A DNA stretch of 64,000 nt, taken from Litchfieldia sinesaloumensis (GTDB taxonomy: Bacteria > Bacillota > Bacilli > Bacillales > Bacillaceae_L). The stretch is from assembly GCF_900156865.1 (NCBI RefSeq), contig NZ_LT732529.1:390300-454299 (forward strand), read 5' to 3'. Under the pieces are notes generated by a model. That model had not been told where the DNA came from, did not search any database, and worked only from the letters and a program-made list of their open reading frames with translations. A program made the translations under genes and the position numbers. Positions 18,840 to 64,000 of the stretch are shown one piece after another; position 1 is the first letter of the stretch, and each line of letters starts with the position of its first letter.

Positions 18840-19130
18840 AAATAAAAAACCATTCGAACCTAACAAATTAATGTTAGGGACGAATGGTTACCGCGTTGCC
18901 ACCCTAGTTATTTTATACCCATGTTTAAATACGATATAAAATCTCTCGACTCCTTGTAACGTAAGGATGACGCCTTTGCCTACTTGTAATTCAGCAAAGA
19001 AGCTCCAAAGTCCATTCCATATGTCCCACTATCTGTTTACACCGACCACAGACTCTCTGCATGAGGTTTAGCACCCCAAAAGTGGATTTCCATATGTACT
19101 ACTCTTCTTCATAGCAAGTTATTTTATATT
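18840..19130 (-). promoter_or_regulatory. T-box riboswitch, tryptophan-specific, upstream of trpS
   Basis: Reading the minus strand, the T-box sequence AGGGTGGCAACGCGG lies at 18905-18891. Its TGGC can pair with the GCCA end of tRNA-Trp, whose discriminator base is G. The terminator stem AACCATTCG/CGAATGGTT (18848-18856 with 18881-18889) is followed by a T-run. In Stem I the candidate specifier is TGG (plus-strand CCA at 19012-19014), in GGAATGGACTTTGG. An AGAGAGTCTGTGG GA-type motif and a GGTGTAAACAG segment lie upstream. Uncharged tRNA-Trp would prevent termination and raise trpS expression. Confidence 0.92.
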
Positions 19131-37196: not shown

Positions 37197-37418
37197 CAGA
37201 AATGCGGAGGCGAGCGTATAGCGACGTACGGACTGAGGCCCACAGGATGTGGGTCACACAGACGTTGCCACAGGACGTGGCGTTATTAGTCTGTGTTCCT
37301 CAAAGGAGATAAAGGAAACACGGTGAGCGAAGTGAGCCGATGTTGAGCTTATTGTACGAAGGGTGTCTCGCTAGTCGCTGCGAGCTGTAGCTGAACAAAT
37401 TGGAAAGGAAAATAAATC
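37197..37418 (+). repeat. GC-richer structured intergenic element between nadF and yjbO
   Basis: This 220-bp stretch is richer in G and C than its neighbours and full of inverted repeats. Hairpin A is CCCAC-AGGAT-GTGGG at 37239-37253. Hairpin B is GCCAC-AGGAC-GTGGC at 37267-37281, enclosed by an 8-bp stem ACACAGAC/GTCTGTGT (37256-37263 with 37289-37296). The two hairpins share a CACAGGAYGTG core. It codes for nothing visible. The look is that of a dispersed repeat inserted within the relQ-nadF-yjbO operon. Confidence 0.6.
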
Positions 37419-50075: not shown

Positions 50076-50906
50076 ATGATTAAAAAGGCTATTATTCCTG
50101 CAGCTGGTTTTGGAACTAGAGGCTTACCAATGACCAAAGTACTTCCTAAAGAAATGCTCCCTATCGGAGGGCGCCCAGCTATCGATTATATCGTCGAAGA
50201 GGCGGTAAATGCAGGTATAGAGCAAATCCTGATGATCGTCTCACGTACAAAAAACTTAATTGTCGATTATTATGACAGATCCTTGGAATTAGAAGCATTT
50301 TTAGAACAGCAAAATAAACAACATCTACTCAATACATTGGAGCTTCCTAAAGTGAAAATTTATTATATGAGGCAATTCTATCCGAAGGGATTAGGGCATG
50401 CTGTCTCTTTAGCAAAGGACTTTATTGGTAATGATCCCTTTGCTATTTTATTACCGGATGAAATCTATCTATCTACCATTAAAAATCCAACAAAGGAATT
50501 AATAGACGCGTATACCCATTATGATAAAAATGTAATTGCTCTACAACAAGTTGATGAAGAACATTTAAAAAGTTATGGAGTTATTCAGGTAGAAAAAAAG
50601 GAAAAGGAACGTATCTATAAAATTTCCGATATTGTAGAAAAGCCGGAAAGTAATCCACCATCTAACCTTGCTGTAACAGGGAGATATATATTGAAACCAG
50701 ACATCTTTTCATGTTTAGAGCAAACAAAGCCAGGTGTTGGCTCTGAGGTTCAGTTGACGGATGCAATTAAACTTATGCTTCAATCTGAGCCGGCTTATGG
50801 AATAGAAGTAGCCAGTGAGCGCTTTGATATAGCAAAGGAAGCTGACTATATAAAGCTCGTGCAAAAGGTGTATACAAAGCAACAAGGTGGAGGAGGAATA
50901 CAGTGA
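50076..50906 (+). CDS. galU: UTP-glucose-1-phosphate uridylyltransferase
   Basis: Makes UDP-glucose from UTP and glucose-1-phosphate. The 276-residue protein has the nucleotide loop AAGFGTRGLPMTKVLPKEML (residues 9-28), the GGRPAIDYIVEEAV segment and FAILLPDE with the metal-binding Asp. It is a GtaB/GalU homologue, slightly divergent in the first loop. AAGGGGGGAGA precedes the ATG. It is directly followed and overlapped by UDP-glucose dehydrogenase, so the pair supplies UDP-glucose and UDP-glucuronate, in this setting probably for the glycosyltransferases downstream. Confidence 0.92.
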   Translation: MIKKAIIPAAGFGTRGLPMTKVLPKEMLPIGGRPAIDYIVEEAVNAGIEQILMIVSRTKNLIVDYYDRSLELEAFLEQQNKQHLLNTLELPKVKIYYMRQFYPKGLGHAVSLAKDFIGNDPFAILLPDEIYLSTIKNPTKELIDAYTHYDKNVIALQQVDEEHLKSYGVIQVEKKEKERIYKISDIVEKPESNPPSNLAVTGRYILKPDIFSCLEQTKPGVGSEVQLTDAIKLMLQSEPAYGIEVASERFDIAKEADYIKLVQKVYTKQQGGGGIQ

Positions 50907-52180
50907 ATGTCTTAGTCATTGGCACAGGATATGTCGGAACCACCACTGGCCTTGTTTTATGTGAACGAGGCCACAAGGTGATGGGGCTTGATATTGATAA
51001 GAAAAAGGTGGAGGCTTTGTCAAACGGAAGGCTTCATTTTTATGAGAAAGGTTTACCAGAACTATTAAAAGAACATCTTGGGAAGAAAAATATTTCATTT
51101 ACAACTGATGTCAAAGCAGCGATCGAACAAAATGATATCATTTTTATTTGTGTTGGAACACCTAAAAACGAAGATGGTAGTGCAGATCTGAGTGCAGTAT
51201 ACTCTGTGGCAAGAATGATTGGTACATTTATGAATCAATACAAAGTCGTGATTAATAAAAGCACCGTACCAGTTGGAACGGCGGCAAAAGTTAAAGAAAT
51301 TATTGAAAGTGTAAATGCGGATATTCCATTTGACGTTGTTTCAAACCCGGAATTTTTAAGGGAAGGATCAGCTCTTTATGATGCGCTTCATCCCGATCGG
51401 GTAGTGATTGGTGGCTCTAGTCAGAAAGCGTTTGAGATGATGAGAAGTTTATATTCCACTGAAACAGCACCGTTTATTGAAACGACTCCACAGGCAGCGG
51501 AATTAATTAAATACGCCTCCAATTCCTTTCTTGCATTAAAAATCTCTTTTATCAATCAACTTGCTAGACTATGTGACACGTTGGAAGTAGATATCGATGA
51601 AGTATCAAAAGGAATGGGTCTAGACCATCGAATTGGCCCTCATTTCCTAAAGGCAGGAATTGGATACGGTGGTTCATGCTTTCCGAAAGATGTAAGTGCA
51701 TTAATTTCAATCGCAAAAGAACAAGGAATTCGTTTATCTATCTTGGAAGAGGTAGAAGCGATTAATAAGTCGCAACCGTTTTATTTAATAAATAAATTGG
51801 AAAACGCATTAGGGGTATTGGAGAAGAAAAGGATTGCTGTGTTAGGTTTAGCCTTTAAGCCAGGTACTGATGACACGAGAGAATCACCGAGCTTGGTATT
51901 AATTGATGAACTGATTAAAAAGGGATGTTCATTAAAGGTACACGACCCAATCGTTACAGTCACAGACCAACGTGTGGAGCAGTGTACAGATGTAATCGGA
52001 ACCGTTTCAGATACTGATGCAGTCGTATTAGTAACTGACTGGGGAGAGTATACACAATTTGATTGGGGAAAAGTGTTCGAAGTAGTCAAACAGCCTTATG
52101 TGTTAGATGGAAGGAACGTGTTAAACAAACAAGAACTTGAGAATCTGGGATTTCATTACCAAGGTATTGCAAAACCATAA
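50903..52180 (+). CDS. UDP-glucose 6-dehydrogenase
   Basis: Oxidises UDP-glucose to UDP-glucuronate with two NAD. The 425-residue protein has the Rossmann motif GTGYVGTTTGLVLCERGH (residues 7-24), the central VSNPEFLREGSA stretch with the catalytic Glu, and the nucleophile Cys259 in GYGGSCFPKD. GTG 50903 overlaps the galU stop (GTGA), and GGTGGAGGAGG is the ribosome site. It belongs to the TuaD/Ugd group. Confidence 0.93.
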   Translation: MNVLVIGTGYVGTTTGLVLCERGHKVMGLDIDKKKVEALSNGRLHFYEKGLPELLKEHLGKKNISFTTDVKAAIEQNDIIFICVGTPKNEDGSADLSAVYSVARMIGTFMNQYKVVINKSTVPVGTAAKVKEIIESVNADIPFDVVSNPEFLREGSALYDALHPDRVVIGGSSQKAFEMMRSLYSTETAPFIETTPQAAELIKYASNSFLALKISFINQLARLCDTLEVDIDEVSKGMGLDHRIGPHFLKAGIGYGGSCFPKDVSALISIAKEQGIRLSILEEVEAINKSQPFYLINKLENALGVLEKKRIAVLGLAFKPGTDDTRESPSLVLIDELIKKGCSLKVHDPIVTVTDQRVEQCTDVIGTVSDTDAVVLVTDWGEYTQFDWGKVFEVVKQPYVLDGRNVLNKQELENLGFHYQGIAKP

Positions 52181-52189
52181 CTGTGAAAT

Positions 52190-52226
52190 TGGTCATCATG
52201 AAAATAAAGTGATGGCCATATTTTAT
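52190..52226 (+). terminator. Terminator of galU-ugd
   Basis: TGGTCATCA at 52190-52198 pairs with TGATGGCCA at 52210-52218 (one G-T pair), followed by TATTTTATT. Confidence 0.75.
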
Positions 52227-52274
52227 TATTAAGAAAAATATTTATTGTAGTTCCGCCGGAAAGGAGGAATTTCT

Positions 52275-52622
52275 TTGTCTGTATTTGAATTCATTTTACT
52301 CTGCTTAGCTAGCTTTCGGCTAACGAGGCTCTTGGTATTTGATAAAATTACTGAATTTATTCGTAGTCCCTTTCATGAGGTAATTGAAGAGGAACTCCCG
52401 GATGGAACAGTTGAGGAATACATCCAGCTTAAAGGCACTGGTTTAAGAAGATGGATAGGTGTACTGTTAAGTTGCTATTGGTGCACAGGTATCTGGTCGA
52501 CGGCTTTTCTGTATCTTATATACGAATTTTATCTGCCCTTGGCTGAACCACTTATTGTTATCTTTGCTATTGCGGGTCTTGCTGCGATTATCGAAACCTG
52601 CGTGACAAAACTATTAAATTAG
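52275..52622 (+). CDS. DUF1360 family membrane protein, YjcA-like
   Basis: A 115-residue protein with the DUF1360 hallmarks: SFRLTRLLVFDKITEFIRSP at the N-terminus and LLSCYWCTGIWSTAF, in which the Cys-x2-Cys pair and Trp are conserved. Three hydrophobic segments are predicted. B. subtilis YjcA of this family is a sporulation protein encoded near the coat gene cluster just after fabI, so the location is also comparable. TTG 52275 is the start, with AAGGAGG at 52261-52267. Confidence 0.85.
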   Translation: MSVFEFILLCLASFRLTRLLVFDKITEFIRSPFHEVIEEELPDGTVEEYIQLKGTGLRRWIGVLLSCYWCTGIWSTAFLYLIYEFYLPLAEPLIVIFAIAGLAAIIETCVTKLLN

Positions 52623-52677
52623 TATATTTGTTTAGTAGGTAAAATACACATTTTCCCAAAAATACACTCCTGTCCAT

Positions 52678-52705
52678 ACAGAATATAGACTTATTCCATA
52701 TAGTA
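52678..52705 (+). promoter_or_regulatory. Sigma-K-type promoter
   Basis: ACA at 52678-52680, 16-bp spacer, CATATAGTA at 52697-52705 (CATANNNTA). It precedes the gene at 52735 by 30 bp. Confidence 0.65.
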
Positions 52706-52734
52706 TGAATTAGGAACAGTAAAGAGGTGAGAAT

Positions 52735-52983
52735 ATGGGGAAAAGTGGACCATCCAAAAACAATGATAGACAATTCCAATCAGATCGCTCAAACCAAGAA
52801 GGTTCAAATCAGGCCGAAGAACGCCATAATAGAGAAAACCTATTGAGTGTGAATGCACCGGGTGGTGTTTCTATTCAAGTCTTGGGTATGGATATAAAAA
52901 TGAGTGACCTGGATATTAAAATTGGCCCTGACGCAAACATTAGCGATATTCAAAGTATCTTCGACCAATTAAGAAGGCAATAA
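52735..52983 (+). CDS. Small spore-locus protein with Gln/Asn/Ser-rich N-terminus
   Basis: An 82-residue protein of two parts. Residues 1-38 are strongly hydrophilic (SKNNDRQFQSDRSNQEGSNQ). Residues 42-82 form a compact segment with repeated beta-like strands (GGVSIQVLGMDIKMSDLDIK) ending in an amphipathic helix. AGAGGTGAG precedes the ATG. A sigma-K-type promoter lies 30 bp upstream and a strong terminator follows, so it is a monocistronic late sporulation gene by inference. The family is not recognised. Confidence 0.7.
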   Translation: MGKSGPSKNNDRQFQSDRSNQEGSNQAEERHNRENLLSVNAPGGVSIQVLGMDIKMSDLDIKIGPDANISDIQSIFDQLRRQ

Positions 52984-53013
52984 CTATTCTAGTAAATAGC
53001 CCTAATATCAGAT

Positions 53014-53052
53014 AAAAAAACGAAAGTATCAATTGATACTTTCGTTTTTTTG
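53014..53052. terminator. Perfect palindromic terminator
   Basis: AACGAAAGTATCAA at 53019-53032 pairs with the adjacent 53033-53046 with no spacer, and is flanked by an A-run and a T-run, so it may act in both directions. Confidence 0.88.
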
Positions 53053-53157
53053 CTTATTAAATAATTCTTTTGCCCTTTTTGTCTCAAGAATGGACAAACA
53101 CACTTCCACTTCTTTCACAAACGTATAACTTATAGTACTGATTGGGAGGTGATAAGT

Positions 53158-53418
53158 ATGGGAAAAAAGGACAAAGATAAAGAAAAAGAGAAGGACAAGT
53201 CAAAAAAGTATAATGAAATTCGGGCTATTGTAAGAGAAGAATTAGAAAAAATGTTACGAAATCTTTCCGTTCATGTTCAATTAAATGTTAATCCTCAAAC
53301 TGAAGAAGAACAAAATGCAGCCTTCGCCGAGGAAACCAAAGACCAACAACCAACTGAAGTCCTCGCTGAAGTTAAACCTGAAGATAAAGCTGAATCCCCT
53401 CCACAAGAAAGTTCATAG
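53158..53418 (+). CDS. Small highly charged protein
   Basis: An 86-residue low-complexity protein. Residues 1-20 are alternating Lys/Asp/Glu (KKDKDKEKEKDKSKKYNE), residues 20-45 form a helix (IRAIVREELEKMLRNLSVHV) and the C-terminal part is rich in Glu, Gln and Pro. ATG 53158 follows GGGAGGTGAT. A weak TATAACTTA at 53124 resembles a sigma-K -10. Adjacent to other spore-locus genes. Not recognised; a structural or interaction role is a guess. Confidence 0.65.
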   Translation: MGKKDKDKEKEKDKSKKYNEIRAIVREELEKMLRNLSVHVQLNVNPQTEEEQNAAFAEETKDQQPTEVLAEVKPEDKAESPPQESS

Positions 53419-53513
53419 ATTTTTAATGAAAAAGGCTGCTTTCAAGTTAAATAGCAGTCTTTTTCATTAAAGAAAATATAGAAAAATTGGTTTTTCTAAT
53501 CAATCTGTCCTAC

Positions 53514-53540
53514 ACAAGAAAAAAACACGGGAATACTATA
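53514..53540 (+). promoter_or_regulatory. Possible sigma-K-type promoter
   Basis: ACA at 53514-53516, 15-bp spacer, AATACTATA at 53532-53540, one mismatch (first A for C) from CATANNNTA. It lies 84 bp before the kinase-like gene. Confidence 0.4.
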
Positions 53541-53623
53541 GATTGATAGTCTTTTACAAATAAAGATTTGTAATTACATTTATATGTAAATAAATCGTAA
53601 AAATGTTGTGAGGTGAAATTGAA

Positions 53624-54589
53624 TTGAACAAACAAGTGAATGTAGATTGTAAGGAAATAGAAAAATATGTAGAAGGAATTACTGTTCAAGCACATGAAGA
53701 TACTGAAGTGACAGTACTAAATAATAACACATCACTTAGAATGATTGGAAAAGGTGTACATGGGGCCGTATTCCAAGTTAATGAAGATGTTTGTATAAAA
53801 ATATATGGTGAAGAAGATGTTTGTGCCCGTGAGCACTATGCCTTAAGTCTCGGTCAACATACAAATCTATTTCCAAAAATATTTTGCAGTGGTCCAAAAT
53901 ATATTGCCATGGAAATGGTTTATGGGATTGACTTGCGTGAATATCTACAATCCCAGCCTTTAACAAAGACCCTTTCTGCTAAGCTTATAGATCTATTAAC
54001 AACCTATAAACGTATTGGCCTTGAAAGAATTGACCATCATAAACGTCATATCTTTGTTCAGGATGACGGGAATCTAAAGGTCTTGGATGTAGGTACAACT
54101 GTATGGAGAAATCGTGTCTATCCTTATCCTCGAAAACTACTAAATAGCCTAGGAAAGCAATATCAAGAAATGTTCTTAGAGCATGTAAAAGAAATGGCTC
54201 CCGCACTTTATGAAGAGTGGCAGAAATATATCGAAATGGAAAAGTATGCGACAGCATTGCATGAAAAGTACTTTGCTCAAGAGGATGTAAATCTAAAGAA
54301 ACTCAAAAAAGAAGAAAAGATTTTACGAACAGGAGACAGCGAATGGGATTCGAAAATCGAGGATCTCGTACGAAAAGTTCACAAAGAACAATGGATTAAA
54401 GCTCTTACCGCTCAAGGGGTAGATATTGAATACGTAAAGGCAAACGCAAAAGAGCTTGAACGCCAATATATCTGGGGTGATAAAAAGAACAAGAAGAACA
54501 AAAATGGAAGTCTATACTCAGATAAGGATAGTAAGAGGAAGCCGCGGGTGTTCACTTCTTCATCTAAAAAGAAACGTAAAAAGAAATAG
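53624..54589 (+). CDS. Protein-kinase-like protein with basic tail
   Basis: A 321-residue protein with an N-terminal kinase-like fold (about residues 38-165). The glycine loop is GKGVHGAVF (42-50), Lys59 sits in CIKIYG, Glu70 may be the helix-C Glu, Asp137 in RIDHHKRHIF replaces the HRD motif, and DVG at 155-157 stands for DFG. It resembles the short spore-associated kinases of Bacillus (YrzF type) rather than Hanks kinases. The last 45 residues are Lys/Ser-rich (DKKNKKNKNGSLYS and KKKRKKK). TTG 53624 is used with GAGGTG upstream. The glycosyltransferase gene follows in the same direction. Confidence 0.75.
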   Translation: MNKQVNVDCKEIEKYVEGITVQAHEDTEVTVLNNNTSLRMIGKGVHGAVFQVNEDVCIKIYGEEDVCAREHYALSLGQHTNLFPKIFCSGPKYIAMEMVYGIDLREYLQSQPLTKTLSAKLIDLLTTYKRIGLERIDHHKRHIFVQDDGNLKVLDVGTTVWRNRVYPYPRKLLNSLGKQYQEMFLEHVKEMAPALYEEWQKYIEMEKYATALHEKYFAQEDVNLKKLKKEEKILRTGDSEWDSKIEDLVRKVHKEQWIKALTAQGVDIEYVKANAKELERQYIWGDKKNKKNKNGSLYSDKDSKRKPRVFTSSSKKKRKKK

Positions 54590-54630
54590 TATTCCTAGAT
54601 ATACGAATAACAACAGAAAGGAGGCTAACC

Positions 54631-55734
54631 TTGAAGGTATTAGTGATATGGCGTTTATTGACTGTTGGTGGTGTGAATGCGGGGTGGCGAAATCGTGCCA
54701 TCTATTTTAAAAAATACGGGATTGAAACGGACTTCATGTACGTAAAGGATCTTGGCGGCATGCATATCATGGAAGATGTTGCGACTGTCTATTTAACGAA
54801 TGATAAAAATGAAATTGTAAACATCATTGAAAAAAATAAATACGATGTCATCATTATCTGTGATACGAAAAAAGGATATAAATGGGTTCGTAAGGCAAAT
54901 TACAAGGGTCCACTATTAATTGAGGCACGTACGCCCGAGATTATTAAACTAACCCGACATCTTCCAGATTTTGATGCGGTCCAACCTGACCGAATTATTG
55001 TACCCTCCCATCATCAAAAGCGCCTCGCATCAATATTAATTGATTCAAACGCACCTTACGAGGTTATTTACAACGGGATTGACACGGAGTTTTTTAAGCC
55101 ACTTCCTCCTGATGAGACTCACCTAAATAAAAATCCTATTATCCCAAAAGACAAAAAGGTCGTTGCCTATATTGGTAGATTGGATGGGCGGAAAAACTGG
55201 AAGCTCTTAATGGAAATTGCCCATCTTGTCAAAAGTGAGCGAGACGATATTGAATTTTGGATCATTGGTGGAAAGAATAGCGTACAAAAAGAAGAATTTG
55301 AGACTTATTGGAACGAGCATGGGTTAACGGATATGGTTAAGTGGTATCCAGTTATTCCTTATCAGGAAATGCCCCATATGTACTCAAAGGTTAGGCAATC
55401 GGGTGGGTGTACAATTGCTACAACGAAGGGAGAGTCATTCGGAAATACCTTTATCGAATCAATGGCTTGTGGTGTACCAGTTGTAGCTCCCGGTACCTCG
55501 TCAATCCCAGAAATTGTTGAAGAAGGTAAGACTGGCTTGCTATATATTGAAGAAAATGCAAGAGATGCAACCAAAAAAATTTACCAAATCGTAGATGCTC
55601 CAGAATATTATCAAACATTAGCAACCAATGCGAGAAAACGAGTTGTTTCACACTTCTCGATTGAAAAATGTGCAGAAAGCTATGTTAGATTACTTCATGA
55701 ATTGACTGGGGGTGACGGGCATCCAAGCAACTAA
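54631..55734 (+). CDS. GT4-family glycosyltransferase
   Basis: A 367-residue GT-B enzyme. The C-terminal lobe starts KKVVAYIGRLDGRKNWKLLM (about residue 173), and GESFGNTFIESMACGVPVVA has the E-x7-E of retaining GT4 enzymes that bind UDP-sugars. TTG 54631 is preferred because of AAAGGAGGC upstream. It overlaps the HipA-like gene by 23 bp, so the kinase-like, glycosyltransferase and HipA-like genes form one operon. The N-terminal lobe is less conserved. Acceptor unknown. Confidence 0.88.
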   Translation: MKVLVIWRLLTVGGVNAGWRNRAIYFKKYGIETDFMYVKDLGGMHIMEDVATVYLTNDKNEIVNIIEKNKYDVIIICDTKKGYKWVRKANYKGPLLIEARTPEIIKLTRHLPDFDAVQPDRIIVPSHHQKRLASILIDSNAPYEVIYNGIDTEFFKPLPPDETHLNKNPIIPKDKKVVAYIGRLDGRKNWKLLMEIAHLVKSERDDIEFWIIGGKNSVQKEEFETYWNEHGLTDMVKWYPVIPYQEMPHMYSKVRQSGGCTIATTKGESFGNTFIESMACGVPVVAPGTSSIPEIVEEGKTGLLYIEENARDATKKIYQIVDAPEYYQTLATNARKRVVSHFSIEKCAESYVRLLHELTGGDGHPSN

Positions 55735-56491
55735 ATATCACCAATTATTTGAAGGTAAATCCAATAACGCACATCTTTTTACCTTCGATAATGGGAAACA
55801 GTATATTGTCAAATTTTTAAAAGAAGGCCAAGAAAAACTATTGTTTAACGAATGGATAGGTTATGCAATAGCACGTTATTTACAGCTTCCAGTTCCTCCA
55901 AGTAGATTTGTGCAAATTCCGGAATCCTTCTACAGTGAACTAACTGATGGGGAATTAATAAAGGTTACGAATACACAGTTTGCGACCGAATTTATACCCG
56001 GCTGTCAAAATGCTCACGATTTAACTTCTCCCAATGTCATTAACCGAAATTCTCTTGCGGGAATAATTATCATGGATTACTGGTTATATAACTTAGATCG
56101 AACCAGGAAAAATGTGCTGTTTAAAGAAACAGAAGATGGAAATCACAAACTCTATATTATCGATCATGCAGATCTTTTTGGGTCTTTTGCATGGGATAGT
56201 TCAAATTTATCCACATATTGTAGGAAGCTCATGAAAAGTGCAACACATGAACTTATCGCGAGTTTCATCCCTGATGAAAAAGATTTCTATGACCAGTTGG
56301 CCATTATTCAAGCAATTCCAATCCACTTATTAAATGAAATAGTCGCATACACGCCCGAAGATTGGGGTATTACCGAAGATGATAAAAAGCGAGTTGTCGA
56401 CTATTTAGTGTGCCGCCGGGATCTGGTTTTATCTAAATTAATCCGTGATTTTATTAAATCACGATATCGACCTCTTCATTCTACGTCGTAA
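55712..56491 (+). CDS. HipA-like kinase domain protein
   Basis: A 259-residue protein of the HipA-like (HipA_2) type. A Lys in QYIVKFLKEG (residues 30-39) fits the ATP lysine. The catalytic pair is in WLYNLDRTRKNVLF (Asp129, Arg130, Asn134), and IIDHADLFG at 149-157 fits the metal-binding Asp. GTG 55712 lies within the 3' end of the glycosyltransferase gene. No HipB-like antitoxin is near, so this is not a toxin-antitoxin pair. With the neighbouring kinase-like protein it points to phosphorylation in the spore locus. The role is inferred. Confidence 0.75.
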   Translation: MTGIQATKYHQLFEGKSNNAHLFTFDNGKQYIVKFLKEGQEKLLFNEWIGYAIARYLQLPVPPSRFVQIPESFYSELTDGELIKVTNTQFATEFIPGCQNAHDLTSPNVINRNSLAGIIIMDYWLYNLDRTRKNVLFKETEDGNHKLYIIDHADLFGSFAWDSSNLSTYCRKLMKSATHELIASFIPDEKDFYDQLAIIQAIPIHLLNEIVAYTPEDWGITEDDKKRVVDYLVCRRDLVLSKLIRDFIKSRYRPLHSTS

Positions 56492-56493
56492 AG

Positions 56494-56520
56494 GACAGTG
56501 CGCGTCGCTGTCTTTTTTTT
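56494..56520 (+). terminator. Terminator of the kinase-glycosyltransferase operon
   Basis: GACAGTG pairs with CGCTGTC (one G-T pair) with a short loop, then eight T residues. Confidence 0.8.
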
Positions 56521-56546
56521 AGAACCTTTTTTAAGGGGGATTGATC

Positions 56547-57278
56547 TTGGCCGAGTTTTCAAAAGTAACTATTGGTGATTCTGACTTATATATTTATGTA
56601 GAAGAACAAACTGATAAAGGTAGGCAATTGGTAGTTAATCGAGGCATTCTACATCAAAAGGTAACGGATGTCTGGAGAGCTGCTGCTAGCATATTTTCAC
56701 CAGATCTGGTTTTAGATATAGGATGTGGATATGGAGATGTTTTGTTTTCAACAAAGTACCATGAGAATGCAAGGATAGTAGGAATTGAAGCAAATAAAGA
56801 ATTTGATTGTTGTTTAGTTAAGTCAAAGAACGAACACATGAATAGTAAGCAAATAGAGCTTAAATACTCCTTAGGTCAACAAGACTTAACTGGGTTGAAA
56901 TGCAGGAAACTGCTATTTAGGATGAATCTGCAAGGGAACGAGGAAGAAGGACTTAAAGCACTGGAAACGCTTTCTAAGAGCTGTGAAGGAGTTGTGGGGA
57001 TTGTAGACTTCAATAGTATCTATCTAGAGGAAAATGGTACAAATATAGATAACTTCCTAGCTTATGTTAAAGCTCATTATAAGGTATTTATTATAAAATC
57101 CACAAAGAAATTAATCAACTTACAGCCTCTAACACTACCTATTCTTAAACGAACCCTAAAAAAACCATATATCATTACTGACTTATTACTCGTTTCAAAT
57201 GTAAATCTAGTAACTCTATTAGGCTACAAAAAATCAATCGATTATTTAGATAGAGGCCAGTACTATTTAAATGAATAA
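56547..57278 (+). CDS. FkbM-type SAM methyltransferase, paralogue 1
   Basis: A 243-residue methyltransferase-fold protein. The SAM motif VLDIGCGYGDVLFSTKYHEN is at about residues 52-71, followed by IVGIEANKEFD (acidic loop). The C-terminal half is diverged: where paralogue 2 (60021-60839) has KVLFKIDVEGYEE, this one has KLLFRMNLQGNEE, so the Asp-Val-Glu motif of FkbM enzymes is changed and activity is doubtful. TTG 56547 follows AAGGGGGA. The substrate is likely a sugar residue in the spore locus, by inference. Confidence 0.75.
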   Translation: MAEFSKVTIGDSDLYIYVEEQTDKGRQLVVNRGILHQKVTDVWRAAASIFSPDLVLDIGCGYGDVLFSTKYHENARIVGIEANKEFDCCLVKSKNEHMNSKQIELKYSLGQQDLTGLKCRKLLFRMNLQGNEEEGLKALETLSKSCEGVVGIVDFNSIYLEENGTNIDNFLAYVKAHYKVFIIKSTKKLINLQPLTLPILKRTLKKPYIITDLLLVSNVNLVTLLGYKKSIDYLDRGQYYLNE

Positions 57279-57666
57279 TTACGTTGTGGGGGATGAACGA
57301 GTATTGAAGTCTATTAAACTAGTATATTGGTCTTCATGATGGGTGTGACCGGTTTAAAGTTGTGTTGGAAATAAATGGTTGTAATCGGTGACTGAAGAGG
57401 AAAATGCGTCTGGAAAAATAGTGAAATCCACTTCATCAGGGTTATGAAAAAGAAAACGCGTCTAGAAAATGAATGAATTCCACTTCATCAGGGTTATGAA
57501 GAGGAAATCAGTGCTCATAACCAAGTAAAGTCCCCTTCATTAAGGCTATGAAGGGGACTCCGCCATTTAAAAAAGCAAAATCTCCTTTATCGTTTTAGAG
57601 TGCTTTTAACAGAGGCCAAAACTACTCAAATGATTCTTTATTCAAGTGAACAAAATGAACAACAAC
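57279..57666. repeat. 52-bp tandem repeat in a 388-bp non-coding interval
   Basis: TCCACTTCATCAGGGTTATG occurs at 57427-57446 and 57479-57498, and a diverged copy TCCCCTTCATTAAGGCTATG at 57531-57550, each 52 bp apart. A partial unit precedes at about 57391. The last copy also forms AGTCCCCTTCAT/ATGAAGGGGACT, a 12-bp stem at 57529-57559. No gene or clear terminator for either neighbour is visible apart from this stem. Confidence 0.8.
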
Positions 57667-58464
57667 CTAATAGTTTACAATAATCTTATTTAGTGAGAAG
57701 CTTCCTTTTGGCAGCTCCTTGCTATATACAAACCCGTCTACAACAACAGATTGACTTTCTTCGTTTTTCGTTAGGGTAATATCGAATTGTGGAAAGATAA
57801 CAGTTTCATTTGGTTCAAGCGGGTTCGGATCTACATATTTAATCCAATACTCCCCATATTCCCTGATCTTCTCTTTCCAGTTTTCATGTAAAAAGACCCA
57901 ATCGATTTCGGAATCAAGAAGGTCTCGGGATTTCTTTGTACCGATTTTTCCACTAAGTGTGCCTGCATCTTTAGGAGAGAGTTTGAAGCAAATAATAATG
58001 TCATGTAAGGCTTCTGTCCCGATATTTTTAATAATAAAATCTCCGATTATAGTTATATCATCATCTTCGGTTTGGGGTAAAAGGGTTGAATAGGCAAAGT
58101 GAGCCTGAATGCTAGGGCGTGTCTCAAGTGTACTTTGTTTAGTCTCTTCTACAAGCGGTTTATTCGATACAACTTTTTGCTGAAGCTGTAACGAACGTTG
58201 CTTTTCCTCTTCAAGTTCCACTTCTAGCTGCATAATTTTTTCTTTTAATTTGTGTATTTCCTTTTGATATATCTCAATTTGTTGATCCTCAATTGTATAT
58301 AACTTCTCCTGTAAAAATTGATTCCTCAGTTTTTCTTTTTCGATGTTTGCTTGTAGAGTTTTTAGTTTATGTTCGTAGGATACAATTTCAGATTGATAGT
58401 GAATAATACGTTGTTTTAATTGGATGCTGTCTTCCGAGCGTCCCGGCTGCTGTCTTTGTTTCAC
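57667..58464 (-). CDS. Coiled-coil spore-locus protein with C-terminal beta domain
   Basis: A 265-residue protein. Residues 15-110 are a long coiled coil (KLKEKIMQLEVELEEEKQRS and neighbours). Residues 120-265 are rich in strands (TIIGDFIIKNIGTEALHDII; ETVIFPQFDITLTKNEESQS) and look like a beta sandwich. The start of the coiled coil, LKQRIIHYQSEIVSY, is shared with the 107-residue protein at 59439. A sigma-K-type promoter lies upstream (58486-58513). GGAGAGGAGGG is the ribosome site. The family is not recognised; a structural role in a spore layer is inferred. Confidence 0.7.
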   Translation of the reverse strand: MKQRQQPGRSEDSIQLKQRIIHYQSEIVSYEHKLKTLQANIEKEKLRNQFLQEKLYTIEDQQIEIYQKEIHKLKEKIMQLEVELEEEKQRSLQLQQKVVSNKPLVEETKQSTLETRPSIQAHFAYSTLLPQTEDDDITIIGDFIIKNIGTEALHDIIICFKLSPKDAGTLSGKIGTKKSRDLLDSEIDWVFLHENWKEKIREYGEYWIKYVDPNPLEPNETVIFPQFDITLTKNEESQSVVVDGFVYSKELPKGSFSLNKIIVNY

Positions 58465-58485
58465 ATGTATCCCTCCTCTCCATTA

Positions 58486-58513
58486 CAAGTTATGTAATGC
58501 ACCTAGAATTTGT
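58486..58513 (-). promoter_or_regulatory. Sigma-K-type promoter
   Basis: On the minus strand ACA (58513-58511), 16-bp spacer, CATAACTTG (58494-58486), fitting CATANNNT. It precedes the coiled-coil protein gene. Confidence 0.55.
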
Positions 58514-58526
58514 GTTTGTGACCATA

Positions 58527-58563
58527 AAAATAAACTAGACTGTTGATGTTTCAACAGTCTAGC
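58527..58563 (-). terminator. Terminator of the Cys-rich protein gene
   Basis: On the minus strand CTAGACTGTTGA pairs with TCAACAGTCTAG (between 58534 and 58562) with a short loop, then TTTATTTTT. Confidence 0.85.
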
Positions 58564-58577
58564 TTAACCAGTTCCGC

Positions 58578-59285
58578 TTAGTGAGCAGGAAAAACTTCTG
58601 GACATTGTGGAGGGAATTTTTCTGTTGGACATAATACGATATCTTCTAGGATTTCTTCACGTGGTTGGCAGTGTCTAGCTTCGATTTCAAGCTTAACATC
58701 AGCTTCAGTTTGAACTTCTAGGCAAAGAGTAAGGTTGATATCAAGTTGTTGAATATCTGGTTCACAAATTAATGTTGCATCGCATTCAGCTAATGAAACA
58801 TGTACGTTCAAATCTGTTCCTTCAGGAGCACATAATAAGAATGTTTGAGTTGTTACGAATGGGATAGGAGTTTTTGTCATACATACAGTATCATCCATGT
58901 CATCAAGAATTTCTACTGTTATAAAGCCTCTTATTAGAGTTTTCACTCTTTGAAGCGTCACTTGATCACCGTTCGGTAATGTTACAGTAACTGGTTGGCG
59001 TTGACCGATTTCTGTAACAGTCACTTGATTCTCATCTTGGAAGCCAGTATCAATCGGATTACCTTGTGCGTCACTTAAGAAACAATTAACAGACCCGTCA
59101 AATCCGCTTAGTTCAGTACATAAATCTGCTAATGTGCGTTCTGTAGAACCGTTGCATTTAAATTTAACTGGTAGATCTCCAGTGTATGATTGATTCACAT
59201 CTATCTGGCGAGTAATCCAGTCATACACTTTTCGTGTGAGTATACATACTCGTTCTGTGTCTCTATCTTTATGCTTATAACCCAC
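58578..59285 (-). CDS. Cys-rich spore-surface protein candidate, paralogue 1
   Basis: A 235-residue protein with no signal peptide and about ten Cys. It begins with a stretch ERVCILTRKVYDWITRQIDV, then a strand-rich middle (CFLSDAQGNPIDTG; VTLPNGDQVTLQRVKTLIRG) and a C-terminus with CQPREEILEDIVLCPTEKFP and a final CPEVF. The protein at 63248-64000 has the same order of motifs (GNPLD, LQNGKKVTLQK, GFITV, FLLCAPEGT / FHLCAPDGT, C.PRE, CPP.), so they are paralogues. GGAGGAAC precedes the ATG and a sigma-K-type promoter lies at 59337-59363. Coat or exosporium location is inferred. Confidence 0.75.
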   Translation of the reverse strand: MGYKHKDRDTERVCILTRKVYDWITRQIDVNQSYTGDLPVKFKCNGSTERTLADLCTELSGFDGSVNCFLSDAQGNPIDTGFQDENQVTVTEIGQRQPVTVTLPNGDQVTLQRVKTLIRGFITVEILDDMDDTVCMTKTPIPFVTTQTFLLCAPEGTDLNVHVSLAECDATLICEPDIQQLDINLTLCLEVQTEADVKLEIEARHCQPREEILEDIVLCPTEKFPPQCPEVFPAH

Positions 59286-59336
59286 TTGTGTGTTCCTCCT
59301 TTTTGTTGTAATAACCCTTGGGTATAGGGGCTACTG

Positions 59337-59363
59337 TATAGTATGTAAAAGCTAGTCATGTGT
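59337..59363 (-). promoter_or_regulatory. Sigma-K-type promoter
   Basis: On the minus strand ACA (59363-59361), 15-bp spacer, CATACTATA (59345-59337), an exact CATANNNTA. It drives the Cys-rich protein gene and is back to back with the promoter at 59370-59397. Confidence 0.6.
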
Positions 59364-59369
59364 GCTGTG

Positions 59370-59397
59370 ACATTAGCGGAATTTTCCTCATATGATA
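59370..59397 (+). promoter_or_regulatory. Sigma-K-type promoter
   Basis: ACA at 59370-59372, 16-bp spacer, CATATGATA at 59389-59397, an exact CATANNNTA. The -10 sits in an inverted repeat TCCTCATATGATATGAGGA. It drives the 107-residue coiled-coil gene. Confidence 0.65.
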
Positions 59398-59438
59398 TGA
59401 GGAATCAAACATTGATTAAGAAATGAGGAGGTATGAAA

Positions 59439-59762
59439 ATGAATCGAAATACGAGTAATCCGGTGATTTTACAACAAAAAATTATCCATCTACAAGCAGA
59501 GTTATCAAAATATAAATCAATGCAAAAGGATCAATTGTTTCTTGAAAATCAAAAATTAAGGGAGCAAATCAACCAATTAAAGTCTGAAAATGAGCTGCTA
59601 AAGCAACAATTTGTGTCTACAAATATCCGAGAGGCAGAAAAATCAAATCCTGTTCAGCACACTAATAAGATACACCGAGCGCGTCCTACGAAAAGTGAAG
59701 CGAAGGAAATAGAAAGTGGCTGGTTCTTTAGTAACCTCATCCATGAAAACAGTAAAAAATAA
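59439..59762 (+). CDS. Small coiled-coil spore-locus protein
   Basis: A 107-residue protein. Residues 8-62 are a coiled coil (LQAELSKYKSMQKDQLFLEN and QKLREQINQLKSENELLKQQ) and the C-terminal part is basic. Its opening, ILQQKIIHLQAELSKY, resembles LKQRIIHYQSEIVSY of the 265-residue protein at 57667-58464. ATG 59439 is preferred to 59433 because GAGGAGGT ends just before the first ATG. It is divergent from the Cys-rich protein gene. Confidence 0.7.
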   Translation: MNRNTSNPVILQQKIIHLQAELSKYKSMQKDQLFLENQKLREQINQLKSENELLKQQFVSTNIREAEKSNPVQHTNKIHRARPTKSEAKEIESGWFFSNLIHENSKK

Positions 59763-59776
59763 GTAGAACGTGGAAA

Positions 59777-59804
59777 ACATTATTTACAGTCTGGACATAT
59801 ACTA
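59777..59804 (+). promoter_or_regulatory. Sigma-K-type promoter
   Basis: ACA at 59777-59779, 16-bp spacer, CATATACTA at 59796-59804, an exact CATANNNTA, 29 bp before the 40-residue gene. Confidence 0.65.
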
Positions 59805-59833
59805 ACATTATCCTAATCTATGGAGGAATGAAC

Positions 59834-59956
59834 ATGGATAACAATAAAAAGAATCATCCTTCAGACACTGTTAAGGTTTTTTCTTCCTCTAATAAAAGCA
59901 AACCTGTTAAGAAAAAGTCTGGTGGCTGTGGGTGTAAGAAGGTACGTAAGCAGTAA
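59834..59956 (+). CDS. 40-residue basic protein with GGCGC motif
   Basis: A very small gene with its own TGGAGG ribosome site and a sigma-K-type promoter. The protein begins MDNNKKNHPSDTVKVFSSSN and ends VKKKSGGCGCKKVRKQ. The paired Cys in a glycine context among Lys resembles small cross-linkable spore-surface proteins. An imperfect hairpin (59962-59998) follows, without a T-run. The methyltransferase gene at 60021 is downstream and may be cotranscribed. The family is not recognised. Confidence 0.6.
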   Translation: MDNNKKNHPSDTVKVFSSSNKSKPVKKKSGGCGCKKVRKQ

Positions 59957-59961
59957 GTAAT

Positions 59962-59998
59962 AAACCTCTCATCAGTTTTAGTATATGATGGGAGGTTT
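59962..59998 (+). repeat. Hairpin between the 40-residue gene and the methyltransferase gene
   Basis: AAACCTCTCATCA at 59962-59974 pairs with TGATGGGAGGTTT at 59986-59998 (one G-T pair). AACTTG follows instead of a T-run, so partial termination or mRNA processing is more likely than full termination. Confidence 0.6.
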
Positions 59999-60020
59999 AA
60001 CTTGTTAAGGAGTTGGAATT

Positions 60021-60839
60021 ATGGAGAAAGTGCAAATAGGAACAACACCATACGCAATTTTTGTAAACGAAAATGATCAAAGAGCACAATGGCTAAGAAA
60101 CGCAAATGGAATAACTCAACCAGAAATAACAGAGTTTTGGAGACGGAGTGCAAATTATTTAAAACCAGAGCTGATCCTTGATATCGGAATGAATTATGGA
60201 GAGATTCTATTTTCTACTGAATATGGGCCAACAACAACCATAATTGGGATTGACGCAAATAAAGACCTGGAGCCTTTTATAAAAGAATCTAAATTATCTC
60301 ATCCGAATAGTGGTCAAATACAAACATTTTTTGCTCTAGCTTCGAACGAAGTACATGACCAGCACGCATTTTATGTTTCTCCTTCATGGACTGGTACATC
60401 CTCTGCAATCCTTAATGGAAATGCACATCATTATAAGCAAAAGTCTGTGCCATCCATCACTGTTGATAGCATACTTGATTCAAGAAAATATAATACTGAA
60501 AAAGTCCTTTTTAAAATTGACGTTGAGGGCTATGAAGAAAAGGTAATGAAAGGAATGACAAGTGTATTAGGTGCAGCCAATAAAGTTATAGGAAGTATAG
60601 AGTTTGCAAGTATAGCAATGAAAAAGTCTGGTTGTAATTTACAGGAGTTTTTAGATTGGATATCATCCTCTTTCTCGATTCACATACACGGTGGAAATAA
60701 TTCATTGTTTTCAGTTGAACAGAATAGTCTTGCGAGATTACAAGAGTTTTACCAAAAAGAGGAGATTCATACTGATTTATTCCTCTTCTCAGATAGCCGG
60801 TATCCTGAAGCACTGGGGTATAGGGTGACTGAATTATAG
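60021..60839 (+). CDS. FkbM-type SAM methyltransferase, paralogue 2
   Basis: A 272-residue protein. The SAM motif LILDIGMNYGEILFS is at about residues 52-66, TTIIGIDANKDLEPF carries the ribose-binding acid, and VLFKIDVEGYEEKVM (about residue 163) is the FkbM Asp-Val-Glu motif. It matches the 243-residue protein at 56547 along its length, but with an intact catalytic region. FkbM-type enzymes often O-methylate sugars. Here the likely acceptors are glycans of the spore surface, by inference. AAGGAG is upstream. The double glycosyltransferase begins 17 bp after it. Confidence 0.82.
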   Translation: MEKVQIGTTPYAIFVNENDQRAQWLRNANGITQPEITEFWRRSANYLKPELILDIGMNYGEILFSTEYGPTTTIIGIDANKDLEPFIKESKLSHPNSGQIQTFFALASNEVHDQHAFYVSPSWTGTSSAILNGNAHHYKQKSVPSITVDSILDSRKYNTEKVLFKIDVEGYEEKVMKGMTSVLGAANKVIGSIEFASIAMKKSGCNLQEFLDWISSSFSIHIHGGNNSLFSVEQNSLARLQEFYQKEEIHTDLFLFSDSRYPEALGYRVTEL

Positions 60840-60856
60840 AAAGGGAGTATAAAGAT

Positions 60857-63223
60857 ATGCGAATTGTACAGATTTCTACAGATACAATCCCGGTTCCTCC
60901 TCCAAAATATGGGGGAATCCAACGAGTTGTACATTGTCTAACTGAAGACCTTGTAAAAATGGGACATGAAGTTTTTTTATACGCTCCAAAAGGTAGCCAG
61001 ACCAGTGCAACTTTGATTCCATATGAACATAAGGGTCCAAACAATCAAAAAATCGCTGAATTCGTACAAAAAACCCTACCATCTTCTATTGATATCATTC
61101 ACGATCATACTCATTTTTCAATTATTGATCAACTAAACTTACCGACTCCAACAATCAGTACGGTTCATATCAATAACAGTAATTTTCCGCAATTTCCAGT
61201 ATATATCAGTCAAAGGGCATTAATAGACGTTGGGGACAACCTTGGATATTGCATTTACAATGGCATTGATATGAAAGAATATGAGTTTTGCCATAAAAAA
61301 CAGGATTATCTATTATATTTAGGTGAGGTAAGCCCTAAAAAAGGCATTCATCATGCATTGGATATCGCCGATAGAACACAAAGGGAACTAAGGATAGCGG
61401 GGCCAATCTTTGACCGTCAGTATTTTAAAAAAGCAGTAGAACCAAGGATGAAAAGTAATCAAAATATTAAGTATGTTGGGGAAACAGGAGGATTAGAAAA
61501 GCAAAAGCTTTTAAAGTATGCAAATTGTCTGTTATTCCCGATCACGTGGAGAGAGCCCTTTGGGTTAGTTATGGTGGAAGCAATGGCATGTGGTACTCCA
61601 GTGCTTGCCTTAAATAATGGTTCCGTACCTGAGGTATTAGGTCCCTTTACGGATTTAATTTGCGAAACACCGTTAGAAATGATAGAAAAGGTTGAAAAAC
61701 AATCATTCCCAAGACCAGAAGTGCTGCGGAAATATGTTGAAGATACGTTTTCAAAAGAAGTAATGGTAGAGTCCTATGTTGACCTTTATCGCAAAATAGT
61801 TAAAGAAAAAATACCACCTATTAATCTTAATAACAAAAACTTTAACAAACCGCATAACAAAAACCTTCTAAAAACAGAATATGAAACGGTGACCAGGTTT
61901 CTTGAGCAAGGAAAAGTTAAACAGGCAAAGGAATTGATTCTTGGAACCTTTACAACATCTAAACCATCCGTTGATTTTTGCTGCTTACTCGGCCTTTGCT
62001 TTAAACAAGAAAAACGGTATCAAGATGCTGTTTTTTGGTTTGAACTTTCACTAAAACTTGATACAGAGGAATACATTGAGAAAAAAAATAGTACGTGGTT
62101 TCCACATGCGCAACTTTGCATTTGCTACTATCGTTTATCAGAATATGAAGAAGCAAATCATCATAATGAAATAGCACTAAGCTTTTTACCGAGTAGTTCC
62201 TATTTAAAAAACAATAAAATGTTACTTCAACAAAAACTCAAAGATAATTCTCTTAAACAATTAAAAATTGTTCAAGTGGCACCTGATATTTATTCATTAC
62301 CATCTATATATGGGGGGATTGAAAAAATCGTATTTGAACTTACCGAGGAACTATGTGAGCTTGGCCATGATGTTTATTTATTTGCTCCAAAAGACACGAA
62401 AACAAGTGCCAACCTAATTCCATATAGCCATCAAGGAACATGGAAATCAAATGAAATTGTTAAACAAGTGAAAGCTAAGCTTCCAGAAGATGTGGATATT
62501 ATTCACGATCATACACATTACTCTTCGGTTGGAAAGAATATTATTGAAGTACCAACCGTTTGCTCTATTCATATTTCTTCAAAAAATGATGTCAAAAATC
62601 CTGTTTATGTAAGCGAATATTTACTTAATAAACTGGGTAAAAATGAAGGTCATTTTATTCATAATGGTATCAAACTGGAAGAATATCAATTTAGTGATAA
62701 AAAGGAGGATTATTTTTTATATTTTAGTAGACTTAGCAAACAGAAAGGGACTCATTTTGCCCTTGACATATGTGAACGAGCGAATTTGAAATTAAAAATG
62801 GCTGGACCAATCTCAAATCAACAAGAATACAAAAAGGAGTTTGAATCAAGGATATTATCGAATTCAAACATTGAATACTTTGGAACAGTTGGTGGCCAAG
62901 AAAAACAAGATTTACTCAAATATGCAAGATGTATGTTATTTCCAACGAATTGTGATGAAGCATTTGGACTTGTCATGATCGAAGCAATGGCTTGTGGTAC
63001 ACCTGTTTTAGCTCTTGCAAATGGTGCAGTTTCTGAGGTGTTAAAAGGCTTCCCCGAGTTGATTTGTTACAGTGTAGAAGAAATGAGGGAAAAGGCACTA
63101 AATTTAATATTTCCTACACCTACTGAATTAAGAGATTACGTCCATGAACGGTTTTCAATTGGCAAAATGACAGAAAAATATGTAAATTTATATCAAAACC
63201 TTATTCAGAACCATAAAAAATAG
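60857..63223 (+). CDS. Double GT4 glycosyltransferase with central TPR region
   Basis: A 788-residue fusion. Residues 1-320 form a complete GT-B glycosyltransferase (MRIVQISTDTIPVPPPKYGG start, YLLYLGEVSPKKGIHHALDI, GLVMVEAMACGTPVLALNNG). Residues 335-460 form helical TPR-like repeats (YQDAVFWFELSLKLDTEEYI; YRLSEYEEANHHNEIALSFL). From about 469 a second glycosyltransferase repeats the first (LKIVQVAPDIYSLPSIYGGI; YFLYFSRLSKQKGTHFALDI; GLVMIEAMACGTPVLALANG). The halves are an internal duplication with a conserved IIHDHTHFS/IIHDHTHYS pair. It may add two sugars or recognise a scaffold by its TPR. AAGGGAG precedes the ATG. Confidence 0.9.
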   Translation: MRIVQISTDTIPVPPPKYGGIQRVVHCLTEDLVKMGHEVFLYAPKGSQTSATLIPYEHKGPNNQKIAEFVQKTLPSSIDIIHDHTHFSIIDQLNLPTPTISTVHINNSNFPQFPVYISQRALIDVGDNLGYCIYNGIDMKEYEFCHKKQDYLLYLGEVSPKKGIHHALDIADRTQRELRIAGPIFDRQYFKKAVEPRMKSNQNIKYVGETGGLEKQKLLKYANCLLFPITWREPFGLVMVEAMACGTPVLALNNGSVPEVLGPFTDLICETPLEMIEKVEKQSFPRPEVLRKYVEDTFSKEVMVESYVDLYRKIVKEKIPPINLNNKNFNKPHNKNLLKTEYETVTRFLEQGKVKQAKELILGTFTTSKPSVDFCCLLGLCFKQEKRYQDAVFWFELSLKLDTEEYIEKKNSTWFPHAQLCICYYRLSEYEEANHHNEIALSFLPSSSYLKNNKMLLQQKLKDNSLKQLKIVQVAPDIYSLPSIYGGIEKIVFELTEELCELGHDVYLFAPKDTKTSANLIPYSHQGTWKSNEIVKQVKAKLPEDVDIIHDHTHYSSVGKNIIEVPTVCSIHISSKNDVKNPVYVSEYLLNKLGKNEGHFIHNGIKLEEYQFSDKKEDYFLYFSRLSKQKGTHFALDICERANLKLKMAGPISNQQEYKKEFESRILSNSNIEYFGTVGGQEKQDLLKYARCMLFPTNCDEAFGLVMIEAMACGTPVLALANGAVSEVLKGFPELICYSVEEMREKALNLIFPTPTELRDYVHERFSIGKMTEKYVNLYQNLIQNHKK

Positions 63224-63248
63224 GAGTTTTACTGGAAACTCCTATTTC
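63218..63248. terminator. Bidirectional terminator
   Basis: TAGGAGTTT at 63221-63229 pairs with AAACTCCTA at 63236-63244, with an A-run before and TTTCT after. It separates the fusion gene from the convergent Cys-rich gene. Confidence 0.8.
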
Positions 63249-64000
63249 TACTTGGAAATTAATGGACAATCTCTTGGTATCTCGAGAGGTGGACAAATGG
63301 TAGTGTCCTTTATATCCTCTCTAGGGTTACATAAAGTTCCAAATACTTTTACCTTCACGTCTCCTATAACCTGAATACTTTGACATATTTGAATGAAGAT
63401 TTGGACTTTTATACAATTTGATTTCTTGTCGAGTTGCGGCATGATCTTTACTTTACATTCAAAATCAGTAATTTTACATTTAAGTTTTGTACCGTCTGGT
63501 GCGCATAGGTGAAATGTTTCATATTCAAGAAAAGGGAAGGTACATACCATGCAAACTTTATTTTTCGAATTAAGGAATTTTACAGTGATAAAGCCTGACT
63601 TCAAAACGGTGATTTTTTGTAAAGTAACCTTTTTGCCATTTTGAAGTGTGAGTTCAGTATTTTCTCGAGGGTAATCTTCGTTTTGTTCTTCACATTTAAT
63701 GGACTGATGATCATATGGGTCCAGAGGATTTCCTTTTTCATCAGACAGGAAGCATATAGCGTCTTTTATATCCATGTGACAAGGTTCTTCTTCATGAGTG
63801 TAGTGAATATTCACTTCAAATTCTCCACAGCAGCATATATCGGATTTCTTTTCTTTTCCATGACATTGAATCTCGATGTGTTTAACCTTCCCAATTGTTC
63901 CACAAAAGGATTGGCCTTCACAAATGGAGTTTATTTTTTCTCCATTAACAAAAATGTCTAATTTACATCCACAAGAGGAAGTCAACTTAATTTTAATTGT
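63248..64000 (-). CDS. Cys-rich spore-surface protein candidate, paralogue 2 (5' end outside window)
   Basis: At least 250 residues with about 26 Cys. The frame is open to the window edge. A TTG at 63985 has no ribosome site, so the true start probably lies further upstream. It shares the motif order of the protein at 58578-59285: CFLSDEKGNPLDPY, LQNGKKVTLQK, LKSGFITVKFL, FHLCAPDGTKL, LCNPREDIKD and a CP-rich tail. Its N-terminus adds Cys clusters (SSCGCKLD; SDICCCGEFEVN). Such Cys density suits disulfide cross-linking of an outer spore layer. Not recognised as a named family. Confidence 0.75.
   Translation of the reverse strand, partial: TIKIKLTSSCGCKLDIFVNGEKINSICEGQSFCGTIGKVKHIEIQCHGKEKKSDICCCGEFEVNIHYTHEEEPCHMDIKDAICFLSDEKGNPLDPYDHQSIKCEEQNEDYPRENTELTLQNGKKVTLQKITVLKSGFITVKFLNSKNKVCMVCTFPFLEYETFHLCAPDGTKLKCKITDFECKVKIMPQLDKKSNCIKVQIFIQICQSIQVIGDVKVKVFGTLCNPREDIKDTTICPPLEIPRDCPLISK

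Follow-up and report, generated by a model that had tools for sequence, protein, structure and literature searches.

The S-type endospore appendage (S-ENA) of Bacillus paranthracis is anchored by Ena1C, whose gene lies beside ena1B in opposite orientation, and ExsL, which combines a DUF3992 domain with a CotZ domain for integration into ExsY sheets, tethers the L-ENA (PMC12921279). Deletion of ena1C is reported to yield detached fibers. The same report on Ena1C and ExsL still calls the coat receptor for Ena1C unidentified, and according to a 2021 review no homologues of the S-ENA clusters had been found outside the B. cereus group (PMC8619143). In Bacillus (Priestia) megaterium, a GFP fusion of BMQ_0737 was among the outermost spore proteins tested (PMC4656864), and the ytdA-ytcABC/cotS cluster has been described as well (PMC2860764, PMC11708026). 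Here we describe a locus in a window of 64,000 nucleotides (C3:390300-454299) of the 4.56 Mb genome of Litchfieldia sinesaloumensis. It begins at window position 50076. A sequence-only reading had ended it at the window edge, which is too early: the sequence past the edge continues it for about 8 kb, to about C3:462464. As judged from its genes, it is probably a locus for the outermost spore layer of Fredinandcohnia species (Ferdinandcohnia in the taxonomy spelling), situated at the place that CotZ/ExsY take in other bacilli and equipped with fiber and glycan genes.

Two paralogues are central to this proposal. Cys1 (58578-59285, minus strand) is a full-length member of the BMQ_0737 family of morphogenetic spore coat proteins (NF052457, 8.2e-65, 218.7 bits with a cut-off of 71); the B. 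megaterium protein comes from another species, whereas Cys1 is linked to glycan and Ena genes. Cys2 (63248-64000, minus strand, truncated at the end of the window; the whole gene spans C3:453547-454524) has 325 residues at full length, and already its part in the window matches both NF052457 (8.3e-39, 133.8 bits) and the Ena profile PF13157 (9.7e-9). The closest named relative among the loci found with the kinase KIN, described below, is that of Fredinandcohnia onubensis (contig NZ_NSEB01000026.1), whose full-length Cys2 orthologue scores above the cut-off with both profiles. Since its Enas domain at residues 39-143 falls inside the BMQ_0737 match at residues 13-323, the Ena insertion separates the first BMQ_0737 segment from the core. 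All ten chimeras scored with NCBIfam pass NF052457, one of them narrowly (73.1 vs 71 bits), and all six scored with Pfam pass the Enas cut-off. In the literature searched, we found no account of a BMQ_0737-Ena chimera. Next to the window, a separate small gene encodes an Ena subunit (L003:737-1210; PF13157 5.9e-17, 62.2 bits with a cut-off of 22), which weakly matches the solved S-ENA subunit 7A02 (phmmer E 0.0028, residues 33-112). A third Ena-domain gene of the genome lies apart from the locus (C3:2931928-2932257).

Like Ena1C, Cys2 is a DUF3992/Ena-domain protein encoded beside a fiber gene and distinct from the fiber subunit, and like ExsL it carries a surface-layer module together with an Ena domain (PMC12921279). 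It differs from ExsL in that the surface module is BMQ_0737 rather than CotZ, the Ena domain is inserted inside this module and anchoring is a prediction only. Identity with ExsL was rejected, as neither Cys2 nor the rest of its genome has a CotZ match, and Cys2 may work like ExsL without being an ExsL. The F-ENA with its F-Anchor and F-BclA provides the same combination of fiber, anchor and collagen-like partner, but its subunit belongs to another family (DUF4183) and its anchor is built on a collagen stalk (PMC11952670).

We searched 397 mutually related genomes from the order, with one genome for each species. With a profile built on ten chimeras (A3), which are themselves among those counted, we found at least 26 near-full-length chimera copies in 25 of these genomes, carrying 13 family and 15 genus labels among the matches listed. 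A few long Ena frames (in G048, G130, G329 and G391 among others) may represent further chimeras and are not included in this count. Going by the matches listed, 21 of the 26 chimeras have another Ena match no more than 2 kb away, and in 14 cases the closest one is on the opposite strand. In contrast, none of 30 plain BMQ_0737 genes, taken from genomes in which Ena matches were listed, has such a neighbor; the control genes were filtered to Ena frames of at most 220 residues and the chimeras were not, and the same filter leaves 20 of the 26 chimeras with an Ena neighbor (that of G367 being a 323-residue frame). Ena-domain genes themselves occur in at least 80 of the 397 genomes (profile matches listed). 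The order YjcA-cc265-Cys1-short collagen-like-Cys2-Ena in G025, a genome from another family, repeats the core of the locus. A protein with both a CotZ and an Ena domain, each above its cut-off, is encoded beside an Ena gene in G094. In G207 (L199:1684-4881), the chimera is directly followed by genes that by eye resemble a 4,6-dehydratase and a PseC-like aminotransferase, and this arrangement suggests a pairing of the chimera with glycan synthesis in other genomes too.

The chromosomal place of the locus had been likened to that of the B. subtilis coat genes, which is borne out in kind, since spoVIF has CotZ genes in its vicinity in some genomes and BMQ_0737 genes in others. In a radius of 20 kb around spoVIF, 25 of 100 genomes have CotZ and 17 have BMQ_0737, and none has both; within 40 kb the numbers are 27, 20 and two (G053, G092). 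Over whole genomes, 182 of the 397 have CotZ only, 139 BMQ_0737 only, 28 both and 48 neither, where BMQ_0737 stands for listed A3 matches with E at most 1e-11, excluding those to the Ena part only. Other cut-offs give 50 with both, 160 with CotZ only, 141 with BMQ_0737 only and 46 with neither (E 1e-3) or 19, 191, 93 and 94 (1e-20). The same split by genus is 15 both, 63 CotZ only, 43 BMQ_0737 only and 14 neither (135 genera), and among 100 relatives 16, 38, 37 and 9; these exclusion counts and their Fisher statistics ignore the phylogeny of the related genomes. Within the genus, a search for CotZ/ExsY (PF10612) gave a single match in G007 and none in G000-G006 or G008. G007 has its CotZ within 28 kb of SpoVIF, no BMQ_0737 match and a UGP resembling the window UGP (L180-L181). 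CotZ/CotY/ExsY crust and exosporium genes near spoVIF thus resemble BMQ_0737 in chromosomal place, but the two are largely mutually exclusive and have no detectable profile similarity; homology was rejected by hhalign profile comparison (probability 0.1). Because of this combination of exclusion, shared place and lack of similarity, BMQ_0737 at the CotZ/ExsY place looks like a non-orthologous replacement.

Sequences fitting sigma-K had been noted ahead of at least five genes. We searched with a loose version of the sigma-K consensus, AC-N15-17-CATAnnnT, and found it upstream of eight of 24 gene starts. Five of them are in the window: s82 (52735-52983, plus strand, a small protein of 82 residues), cc265 (57667-58464, minus strand, coiled coil, part of the core surface module), Cys1, cc109 (59433-59762, plus strand, a short coiled-coil protein) and s42 (59828-59956, plus strand, small and Lys/Cys-rich). 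Cys2, YjcZ and SpoVIF follow outside the window. Markov shuffles (n = 200) averaged 0.985 such starts and never exceeded 5, and none of 21 other window genes has such a site. A stricter pattern occurred at two of the 24 starts vs 0.19 expected (controls 0/21), and the -10 box alone at eight vs 2.1 expected (controls 5/21). The sigma-K-like sites thus fall before shell and small genes rather than enzymes, and transcription from s82 and s42 could extend into the enzyme genes.

The first enzymes of the locus are a UTP-glucose-1-phosphate uridylyltransferase (UGP, 50076-50906, plus strand, PF00483) and a UDP-glucose 6-dehydrogenase (UGD, 50903-52180, plus strand, TIGR03026 above cut-off). UGP scores below the cut-off of the GalU model (304.3 vs 326.8 bits) and is of the YtdA type. 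In a tree, it groups with seven UGP rows from six genomes with cotS-type clusters (support 100/100; four of the ten cotS-type stretches, L206, L207, L209 and L213, had no UGP row) and apart from its two own paralogues and from 26 of the 28 cassette UGPs used, albeit with a long-branch warning; the remaining two (L105, L109) fall on its side, and the 28 were drawn from 57 non-Fredinandcohnia cassette UGPs. UGD lies outside a clade of 24 of the 26 cassette UGDs used (of 42), and its nearer kin is not settled. A role of UGD in teichuronic-acid synthesis as TuaD was rejected (NF047673, 476.6 vs a cut-off of 700 bits). Two FkbM-type methyltransferases had been proposed, and this holds for MT2 (60021-60839, plus strand; PF05050 1e-9, TIGR01444 above cut-off), while its paralogue MT1 (56541-57278, plus strand, 27% identity to MT2) gave only weak methyltransferase matches. 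GT4x2 (60857-63223, plus strand) has, by domain matches, two GT4 domains linked by a tetratricopeptide repeat (TPR) stretch, and full-length matches to it were found only in G000 and G006 among 100 genomes. The TPR linker shares 37% identity over 123 residues with the TPR repeats of a GT2 enzyme encoded just outside the window, and glycan genes flank the Ena gene on both sides. Beyond the window, the locus further contains a BclA-like collagen-repeat protein (repeats present; BclA_C 32.9 vs a cut-off of 38 bits), a short collagen-like protein, YjcZ and SpoVIF, the last two with family matches above cut-off. The collagen-repeat gene (L003:3000 to about 5880) has a long internal run of Ns with its two sides in different frames.

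Three genes of the window form a cassette of their own: KIN, of a Hanks-like kinase family (53624-54589), the GT4 glycosyltransferase GT4a (54631-55734; PF00534 4.5e-30) and a HipA_2-type kinase (55712-56491; PF20613 3.8e-19), all on the plus strand. In KIN, GKG..GAV, K59, E70, D137 and D155 are invariant in 50 sequences, and these positions would, by our own assignment, correspond to kinase motifs; the KIN profile matches StkP kinase chains (E 1e-4), and a search of the PDB with HipA gave no match. KIN served as scan query and is thus present in 74 of 77 loci by construction, where GT4 occurs in 74, HipA in 74, UGP in 60 and UGD in 45. KIN, GT4 and HipA are consecutive in 70 of the 77 loci, with UGP coming directly next in 43 and UGP-UGD in 30. 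The cassette is seen in many Bacillaceae, and in Bacillus taeanensis (G068) it lies near a fabI-like stretch as in the source locus. Its likeness to cotI(ytaA)-cotSA-cotS with ytdA-ytcABC is formal: a GT4 and a pair of kinases lie close to genes for UDP-glucose pyrophosphorylase and dehydrogenase, and the UGP is of the YtdA type, but KIN and HipA_2 come from other kinase families. An actual cotS-type cluster is found in G046, in the order UGP-UGD-epimerase-GT4-(small gene)-kinase-GT4-kinase, like the ytdA-ytcABC/cotS cluster. We rejected KIN and HipA as CotS/CotI kinases, since both match other families, and GT4a as CotSA, since it has 19-24% identity to the glycosyltransferases of cotS-type clusters. 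For the CotS family (TIGR02906), the best match in the own genome reaches 88.3 vs a cut-off of 172.7 bits, and none above cut-off is listed in G000-G008. Because three cassette genomes outside the genus (G009, G032, G068) do have CotS, the cassette is not a simple CotS replacement; it would represent a second system of kinases travelling with a glycosyltransferase. The own genome also holds an epimerase-like gene, a double KIN-like kinase of 386 residues and a GT4-like enzyme (L053:7997-11306, C3 about 4.064-4.067 Mb), and in G044 (L050) a similar double kinase and GT4 stand directly beside the KIN cassette.

Within the genus, the trio YjcA (DUF1360; 52275-52622, plus strand, PF07098 3.6e-35)-cc265-Cys1 is kept in G001-G005 and G008, and also in G025; cc265 homologues adjoin Cys1 in these genomes and in G006. 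MT1, GT4x2, Cys2 and Ena are present in G000 and G006, with MT2 only in G000 and none in the match table of G006. In the stretches compared, MT1, MT2, GT4x2, Cys2 and Ena are absent from G001, G003 and G005, genomes that have no Enas match, and G002, G004 and G008 have the core and Cys2 without the KIN cassette. At the same place, G005 carries genes for a nucleotide-sugar dehydrogenase, a PseC-like aminotransferase, an oxidoreductase, an epimerase and an acetyltransferase together with glycosyltransferase-like and collagen-like genes. The center thus looks like a glycan locus whose content can be exchanged between conserved flanks. In G005, this variable glycan region also encodes a DUF4855 protein (L039:262-1284), and a by-eye similar N-terminus is found near the core of G008.

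Open reading frames and family profiles placed all genes named in the sequence-only reading at or near the positions given there. Its idea of a late spore-surface locus with glycan enzymes is supported by the BMQ_0737 family, the Ena and BclA-like domains, SpoVIF, the sigma-K-like sites and the YtdA-type UGP, but it fell short in breadth, missing the Cys2 chimera and the run-on into endospore-appendage and collagen-like genes. We propose that Cys1 with cc265, cc109 and s42 forms or organizes a surface shell and that the Ena subunit polymerizes into an appendage fiber, which would be seated by the Ena part of Cys2 while the BMQ_0737 part resides in the shell. UGP and UGD would be the mother-cell source of UDP-glucose and UDP-glucuronate. 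GT4a, GT4x2 and the GT2-TPR enzyme could build glycans on collagen-like proteins and/or the shell, and MT1 and MT2 may methylate sugar hydroxyls. KIN and the HipA-like kinase might phosphorylate glycan or protein acceptors, or scaffold GT4a. A wider picture, to which we give somewhat less than even credence, is that of two largely exclusive shells, CotZ/ExsY or BMQ_0737, at the same site and each with an Ena chimera socketing fibers; in Fredinandcohnia, the exchangeable glycan locus would add the cassette in place of the missing CotS-family kinases. Since a shell and a fiber module would meet in one protein, both anchoring and the replacement of CotZ/ExsY by BMQ_0737 are testable in ordinary bacilli.

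Several observations weigh against this proposal. No loose sigma-K site directly precedes UGP, UGD, KIN, GT4a, HipA, MT1, MT2, GT4x2, Ena, GT2 or BclA. Upstream of 74 KIN loci, sigma-K-like sites were not enriched (7 vs 4.5 expected) and sigma-E sites numbered 0. Outside the genus, the neighbors of the cassette are varied and by eye housekeeping-looking, so that a spore role of the cassette there is at most a possibility. Both shell families occur together in 28 of the 397 genomes, CotZ is also present in eight of the 25 chimera genomes, and a shared lattice role of BMQ_0737 and CotZ is suggested by position and exclusion only. Two chimera matches (G310, G367) contain stop codons, and five of the 26 chimeras (G002, G004, G008, G316, G207) have no listed Ena match within 2 kb.

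The latter five would fit an alternative in which Cys2 is not an anchor: it could be a structural variant or terminator of the Ena fiber, or an ordinary coat protein that carries an Ena-like domain. We consider this unlikely, roughly a one-in-four matter, given the Ena linkage of the chimeras compared with plain BMQ_0737 genes (matches listed), the precedent of ExsL (PMC12921279) and the CotZ-Ena fusion beside an Ena gene in G094. Somewhat more doubtful is that the enzyme half of the locus (UGP, UGD, KIN, GT4a, HipA, the methyltransferases and GT4x2) belongs to the synthesis of a vegetative wall or extracellular polysaccharide, its place beside spore-coat genes being incidental. The surroundings of the cassette in other genera and the lack of sporulation-type promoter enrichment there speak for it, as does UGD, which fits a general nucleotide-sugar dehydrogenase model. 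Yet UGP is of the YtdA type and stands apart from its two own paralogues, UGD remains far under the TuaD cut-off, MT2 starts 64 bp after s42 with its sigma-K-like site, and the Ena gene sits between glycan genes, with a different set at the same place in G005. Least probable of all is that the trio serves, like CotH, to phosphorylate coat proteins, for although the kinase-like positions of KIN are kept in 50 sequences and small charged proteins adjoin it, the frequencies of GT4, HipA, UGP and UGD at the KIN loci argue for a glycan-linked role, as has been proposed for bacterial spore kinases (PMC2860764).

One of these small charged proteins, of 89 residues (53149-53418, plus strand), is also found in G006. 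Elsewhere in the window, Rfam matches mark a T-box leader (18873-19121) and a Bacillaceae-1 small RNA (37239-37305), both on the minus strand.

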